A stretch of DNA of 64,000 bases. Source: a bacterium. Lineage in GTDB: Bacteria > Actinomycetota > Acidimicrobiia > Spongiisociales > ZC4RG35. Position numbers and translations under genes: made by a program. The DNA is taken from positions 82,043-146,042 of the forward strand of contig JAHEJW010000001.1 of assembly GCA_024638655.1 (NCBI GenBank), written 5' to 3'. This document shows, piece by piece, positions 19,150-19,824 of this stretch (its first letter is position 1; each line of letters begins with the position of its first letter). The notes beneath the pieces were generated by a model. It was given only the letters and a program-made list of their open reading frames with translations, had not been told where the DNA came from and ran no database searches.

Positions 19150-19824
19150 TCAGCCCTTGCGATCTTGCGCTGCTGCGATTGCCGCGAGGTAGCGGTCCAC
19201 CATCTGTATGTACGCCTTTGTGTCGTCTTTGAAGGCGTCACTGATTTCACGATGCCTCCGGCGTAGAGCCAGTGTGGCGAACCGGGCTCCTCTCAGGTAG
19301 TGCGGTATGGCCTCGAGCGAGATGGCCTTCTCACCTGGCGCGGCCGTACCGATCGCTGGCTCGGGCTGGGTGACCGGCTCGAGGCCGAGCTCGTCCAGCG
19401 CAGCCAGCAGGTCGTCCTCATCGGGTCGATCCGCATAGTCGCGGCCCTCCGACCGATGGATGATCTGGCCCATGGGGTCGATGATTGCCACCCCCGGTCG
19501 CGAAATCTGTCTCGGGTCGTCCTCATCAGCAAAGCCGAGAGGAGTGATGGCCGCTTCCCGGTTCTCATCGGAGAGAATCGGGAATGTGAGGGCGAGCTTC
19601 TCCATGACAGCGGCATTCTGTGATGGGGAGTCGGAGCTCAGCCCGTAGAGCCTCGCCCCTCTGGCGAGAAACTCGCCGTGTCTCATGGCCAAGACGGCCA
19701 ACTGGCCGTGGCAATACGTTCAGAAGTCACCCCGATGGAAGGTGACGACGACAGCAGCATCTAGATGTTCGGAAAGCGTCCAATCACTGCCTGCGGCGTC
19801 TTTGACCGTGAAGTCGATCGACAT
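19150..19824 (-). CDS. Peroxiredoxin-like (AhpC/TSA) protein, candidate selenoprotein with UGA at codon 35
   Basis: ATG at 19824: MSIDFTVKDAAGSDWTLSEHLDAAVVVTFHRGDF-[TGA]-TYCHGQLAVLAMRHGEFLARGARLYGLSSDSPSQN...; same frame continues 189 codons past TGA with peroxiredoxin-type sequence. Confidence 0.8.
19694..19709 (-). promoter_or_regulatory. Candidate bacterial SECIS hairpin
   Basis: ACGGCC-AGTT-GGCCGT on the minus strand, perfect 6-bp stem, loop G at +18 nt after the UGA at 19722..19720. Confidence 0.65.

Follow-up and report, generated by a model that had tools for sequence, protein, structure and literature searches.

The SECIS of E. coli fdhF carries a GGUCU loop and a bulged U. In the established bacterial mechanism SelB, together with GTP and Sec-tRNA, binds a hairpin and Sec is inserted at the UGA, while about 11 nt downstream are covered by the ribosome (PMC4513850). 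According to the summary of the bSECISearch model in PMC13188914, a bacterial SECIS has a loop of 3-9 nt, an upper stem of 4-16 bp, a G at loop base 1 or 2, a UGA-loop spacing of 16-37 nt and an energy of -7.5 kcal/mol or lower. Selenoproteins of the Prx-like UxxC type (PF00578) have been listed as "Prx-like 1" (PMC2398784) and as "Prx-like thiol:disulfide oxidoreductase" (PMC13188914), and Cys homologs descended from Sec genes can hold SECIS-like remnants (PMC1794560).

We analysed a 64-kb stretch of DNA, called the window throughout, which holds a peroxiredoxin-like gene with an in-frame UGA. From the comparison of sequences, the UGA at 19720-19722 (minus strand) very probably encodes Sec in a thioredoxin-fold, Prx-like UxxC protein, and the RNA directly 3' of it would be a bacterial SECIS that stands in its present register (register B) by a lineage change. 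The SECIS gene is strongly supported because of the Sec machinery, the conservation of the UGA and of synonymous positions, the covariation in relatives and the loss in Cys, Ser and Asp orthologs. We regard it as a real SECIS of known kind; the slide in register is the new and still tentative part. The features are as follows, where +1 is the base following the UGA.

19153..19824, minus strand: peroxiredoxin-like selenoprotein gene of 224 codons, ATG behind AAGGAG, stop TGA at 19150-19152
19720..19722, minus strand: in-frame UGA, codon 35, probably read as Sec (the U of U-x-x-C); conserved TGA in the orthologs
19694..19709, minus strand: originally predicted hairpin ACGGCC-AGUU-GGCCGU, +11..+26, the probable register B SECIS by sequence, folding and conservation in the clade L016-L022
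19700..19703, minus strand: apical loop AGUU, +17..+20, an N1-G-U-N2 motif with A-U as N1.N2, the same as in the GGUC, AGUU and CGUG apices of relatives
19688..19712, minus strand: lower extension GCC (+8..10)/GGC (+30..32) found by RNAfold, probably melted in the decoding ribosome
19687..19699, minus strand: competing hairpin GGCC-GUCUU-GGCC, +21..+33, which also obeys the loop rule

The protein and the Sec machinery

The read-through protein matches Pfam AhpC-TSA with 78 bits and carries the motif RGDF-U-TY-C. An AlphaFold model based on a 47-row ortholog alignment reached a mean pLDDT of 97.7, and its best PDB matches are peroxiredoxins. In a profile alignment C38 corresponds to the conserved active-site (peroxidatic) Cys of 2cx3 and U35 to the Ser three residues before. 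The AhpC/TSA fold is found here, as are a predicted Sec in the redox motif and homologs with Cys instead, and the protein resembles the Prx-like UxxC selenoproteins in domain, U-x-x-C active site and predicted redox role, but differs from them by a two-helix extension at its C-terminus. The nearest NCBIfam model, SelL_rel_redox, was missed (44.1 bits vs a cut-off of 120). Most likely the protein is a UxxC thiol-dependent redox enzyme.

In the window clade a cysteine-rich (CCG) gene resembling LutA lies directly after the selenoprotein gene; in the window (15363-19824, minus strand) it is joined by genes for LutB- and LutC-like proteins and for an alpha/beta hydrolase. L017 and L019-L022 have the CCG neighbour too, and the other lineages inspected lack it.

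The genome holds the complete Sec machinery, namely SelA (438 bits), SelB (328 bits, adjoining selA and with the SelB-wing_3 winged-helix domain), SelD (384 bits, with an in-frame TGA of its own) and a tRNA-SeC with the anticodon TCA. SelA was found in 36 of the 39 genomes with the UGA gene, the other three being 69-84% complete, and each of 17 genomes traced from loci that are mostly of Chloroflexota gave a match as well, above the cut-off in 14. Since 122 of the 149 relatives have SelA, finding it together with the UGA gene carries little weight.

SelD of this genome (G000:C29:51742-52665, L047) is a selenoprotein with the site HGSG-U-ACKLG and has a loop GUU 33 nt after its UGA. The SelD hairpin of these genomes lies at +28..+42 with the loop GUY (GUG in two); its pair +30/+40 occurs as GC, AU, UG, CG or UA and thus covaries, and the hairpin is missing from the Cys-SelD copies seen. 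These sequences suggest that in SelD the same G-U apex may be read from another distance.

The hairpin after the UGA of the window

On the minus strand the sequence 3' of the UGA is ACGUAUUGCC-ACGGCC-AGUU-GGCCGU-CUUGGCC, and the hairpin is found directly 3' of the presumed Sec UGA inside the coding region. The original prediction of a perfect 6-bp stem with a 4-nt loop and a lower GCC/GGC extension across a 3-nt bulge proved correct: +11..+16 pair with +21..+26 around the loop AGUU (+17..+20, with G at +18), and +8..10 pair with +30..32, leaving +27..29 bulged. RNAfold, the check suggested with it, returned the same hairpin and extension for the 60 nt from the UGA and likewise for 38 nt. The 38 nt fold with -14.3 kcal/mol, and 9 of 200 dinucleotide shuffles were equally good, as were 3 of 200 for the 60 nt and 30 of 200 when 81 nt including upstream sequence were folded. 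No matching family was found in Rfam.

The fit to the bacterial SECIS rules holds as well for all numerical rules of the model (PMC13188914): the G is the second loop base, and the stem has 6 bp and an energy of -10.0 kcal/mol. Relative to that consensus the locus differs in that its UGA-loop spacing of 16 nt is the model's minimum and that three loop registers occur in one orthologous family.

How often such a hairpin arises by chance was estimated from the window itself. A model-conforming hairpin of -7.5 kcal/mol or lower follows 7.3% of the 1905 TGA triplets on both strands, and one as stable as that of the window follows 2.9% of them. When the same peptide was recoded synonymously with the codon usage of the family, 6.9% of the recodings reached an equally good hairpin, and the folding of the window sequence relative to such recodings is not significant (z = -0.8). 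Because so many TGA triplets and recodings match it, the claim that the hairpin gives independent structural support for the selenoprotein was too strong for one sequence. What stands is the SECIS gene, which the comparison supports strongly, and the hairpin is clearly above chance because it is conserved across the orthologs.

In the window clade (L016-L022) GGCC-AGUU-GGCC is intact in seven of seven members. The 6-bp stem, which occurs in Thermomicrobiales too, is kept in the clade apart from L017, which lacks the pair A11-U26; L017 and L022 have also lost part of the lower GCC/GGC extension. Two-sided changes in this stem number zero within the clade, where the stem is invariant.

In the proposed mechanism SelB with GTP and Sec-tRNA-Sec would bind a short hairpin presenting an apical G-U (AGUU in the window), and Sec would reach the UGA ahead of release factor 2. 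With some 11 nt downstream lying under the ribosome, the lower GCC/GGC pairs would have to melt while the UGA is decoded, and SelB probably binds the GGCC-AGUU-GGCC core.

Hairpin registers among the orthologs

A gene with UGA at the same codon was found in 39 genomes among the 149 relatives, and the UGA is kept in all 37 full-length aligned orthologs of the same order. A single-protein scan of genome contigs for close relatives gave no match, and we therefore used a DNA pattern search. Its pattern required GGNCAGYT, which biases +13..+20 in the 80 loci so obtained and leaves +21 onward unbiased. With further genes from records of the Rubrobacter type, of other Actinomycetota and of Chloroflexota the collection comprises 100 distinct Sec rows. 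Cultured carriers of the gene or its sister subfamily are Actinomycetospora cinnamomea, Rubrobacter marinus and Ilumatobacter nonamiensis. Among 31 rows below 75% identity synonymous sites show an excess identity of +0.25 over codons +1..+13 vs +0.018 elsewhere in the gene. The top-scoring 10-codon windows of this codon alignment cluster at the UGA, where the highest one begins, and the synonymous sites of codons +1 to +10 are unusually conserved. The mean z of the folding energy is -1.07 in the 100 Sec rows vs 0.0 in 12 non-Sec orthologs. Two genes (L147, L149) have a second Cys in the site (U-PYCNC-QLVS); their codon 5 reads UGC where others have GGC, and G14 and C15 of the stem are retained.

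Most orthologs fold a different hairpin, here called register A, located 4 nt further on, in which G14..U20 pair with A25..C32 around the loop GGUC and the base +28 is bulged; Rubrobacter-type genes have it with two bulged bases, +29/+30. The likeness to E. coli fdhF consists in the GGUC loop and the bulge-interrupted stem. The bulge of the family differs in being on the 3' side and of variable base, and the window form differs by its AGUU loop and 4- to 6-bp stem. A sister subfamily from Ilumatobacter and other records (RGDWUPYCCGQLVRLA; L065, L071, L073, L074, L079, L089, L090, L094 and others) has an unbulged 7-bp SECIS with a five-base loop, mostly CGUGC. In this CCGQLVRLA subfamily 98.4% of the cells are paired (cells count sequences, not evolutionary events), three pairs show two-sided changes and all slid controls fail.

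Covariation in register A is clearest at the synonymous third positions +21 (Leu) and +24 (Val), which pair in all 75 Leu-Val rows (GC 58, CG 13, AU 3, GU 1). On 38 distinct rows 100% pair vs 61.7% after shuffling, and the covariation is 0.946 vs 0.204, a value reached by none of 500 shuffles. On the tree the two positions change six and seven times and never apart; well-supported branches give three independent contrasts, none contrary, which are too few for significance in a sign test. Positions +15/+31 pair in 29 of 29 cases (C-G 25, A-U 2, G-U 2). The covariation that was to be looked for in Sec homologs is thus present in the main register of the family and was not seen for the predicted stem in its own clade. 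From these alignments, that exact 6-bp stem is lineage-specific and differs from the hairpin that the family as a whole conserves.

Natural controls are provided by the 12 non-Sec orthologs, which lie inside the Rubrobacter-type clade and have Cys, Ser or Asp replacing the UGA. Their codons 5-9 are scrambled (GGC/GGG/GGA/GGT; CTC/CTG/TTG/CTT; AGC/TCC/GCC/GGG/GGC/ACC), and +21/+24 are unpaired in 7 of the 12 (CC 5, TC 1, GA 1). As in the described homologs with SECIS remnants (PMC1794560) there are Cys orthologs within a Sec clade, but here the paired synonymous sites are lost in most Cys, Ser and Asp orthologs. L176 and L177 have SAYD or CAYD where the UxxC motif would stand, and their active site is apparently lost or changed.

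The two registers are connected by a coupled codon change. UUG-GCC replaces CUG-GUC in the window clade, in a second group of the same taxonomic family (L027, L030-L032, L035), in Thermomicrobiales and a Chloroflexia record (L080, L086, L128, L133) and in a Chloroflexota group (L067, L070 and others). This removes U23 and creates G18-U19 between GGCC and GGCC (GGGC and GCC in the Chloroflexota group), by which the G-U in the loop goes from +22/+23 to +18/+19 and register A is weakened. Energy evaluation gave -8.9 kcal/mol for register A vs -4.7 for B in a typical register A gene, and -1.3 vs -10.6 kcal/mol in the window; in the second of these groups both registers are possible (-6.5 for A vs -7.4 for B). 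Among Leu-Ala rows UUG is used in 23 of 24 Sec genes vs 2 of 11 non-Sec orthologs. A third register is seen in L148 (G430), where a 7-bp stem with a bulged U and the loop GGUCU from +25 has a probability of 0.98 and resembles the fdhF loop of E. coli. The apical G-U is common to all three registers.

Most of the family would thus use register A (+14..+32, loop GGUC), and in the lineage of the window a change of codons 7-9 from CUG-GUC-AGC to UUG-GCC-GUN may have weakened it and formed the shorter register B with its loop 4 nt upstream. The register label changes four times on the tree, at least two of these changes being forced by starred branches. On balance we favour the view that the SECIS slid along the frame among the orthologs, with the apex at +18/+19, +22/+23 or +26/+27, through coupled changes of CUG-GUC to UUG-GCC that leave the peptide nearly unaltered, apparently up to four times independently.

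Rival readings and the meaning of the proposed register slide

A selenoprotein gene whose active SECIS in the window is GGCC-GUCUU-GGCC at +21..+33, or a weakened register A, seems rather unlikely to us. When +1..+12 are held single-stranded, folding assigns a probability of 0.42 to the +21..+33 hairpin vs 0.58 to register B, and the related third register of L148 is clear; yet the +21..+33 stem is broken in the clade members L017 and L022, in which the GGCC-AGUU-GGCC core persists, and the energy of register A in the window is slight. Register B is likely, though not proven, to be the active fold there.

The readings without any SECIS fare worse. It is very improbable that codons +5..+9 are kept for the protein (GQL[VA][SV]), by codon bias or by descent, with the stem as a by-product of GGC-CAG-YTG-GYC. 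Their residues are strongly conserved, close kin among the rows inflate the counts and only three well-supported contrasts exist for +21/+24, but it is synonymous positions that show the conservation excess, with its maximum just behind the UGA, the third positions +21/+24 have never changed apart, and these codons are scrambled in non-Sec orthologs with similar residues. A reading of the UGA as a non-Sec residue by near-cognate or general suppression has similarly little to recommend it in view of the Cys homologs at the site, the U-x-x-C motif, the complete SelA/SelB/SelD/tRNA-Sec set and the gene's own TGA stop. Although the window comes from a draft assembly of 75 contigs, a sequencing error or pseudogene stop is hardly conceivable, the same in-frame TGA being present with both flanks conserved in 100 distinct sequences of many genera from Actinomycetota and Chloroflexota records. 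We rejected these three readings.

If the slide of the preferred reading is true, SelB would accept loops whose position differs by 8 nt or more between orthologs, and one at +34 in SelD of the same genomes. With its covarying synonymous sites, its Cys/Ser/Asp controls and its dual-register intermediates the family is an unusually clean case for the evolution of bacterial SECIS elements, and SelD, a second selenoprotein of these genomes whose loop shares these bases, adds to it. The family extends the known set by Acidimicrobiia, Rubrobacter-type and Chloroflexota genes, which gene callers treating UGA only as a stop would shorten, and it makes testable both the reach of SelB from the UGA to the loop and the movement of a signal embedded in a coding sequence.
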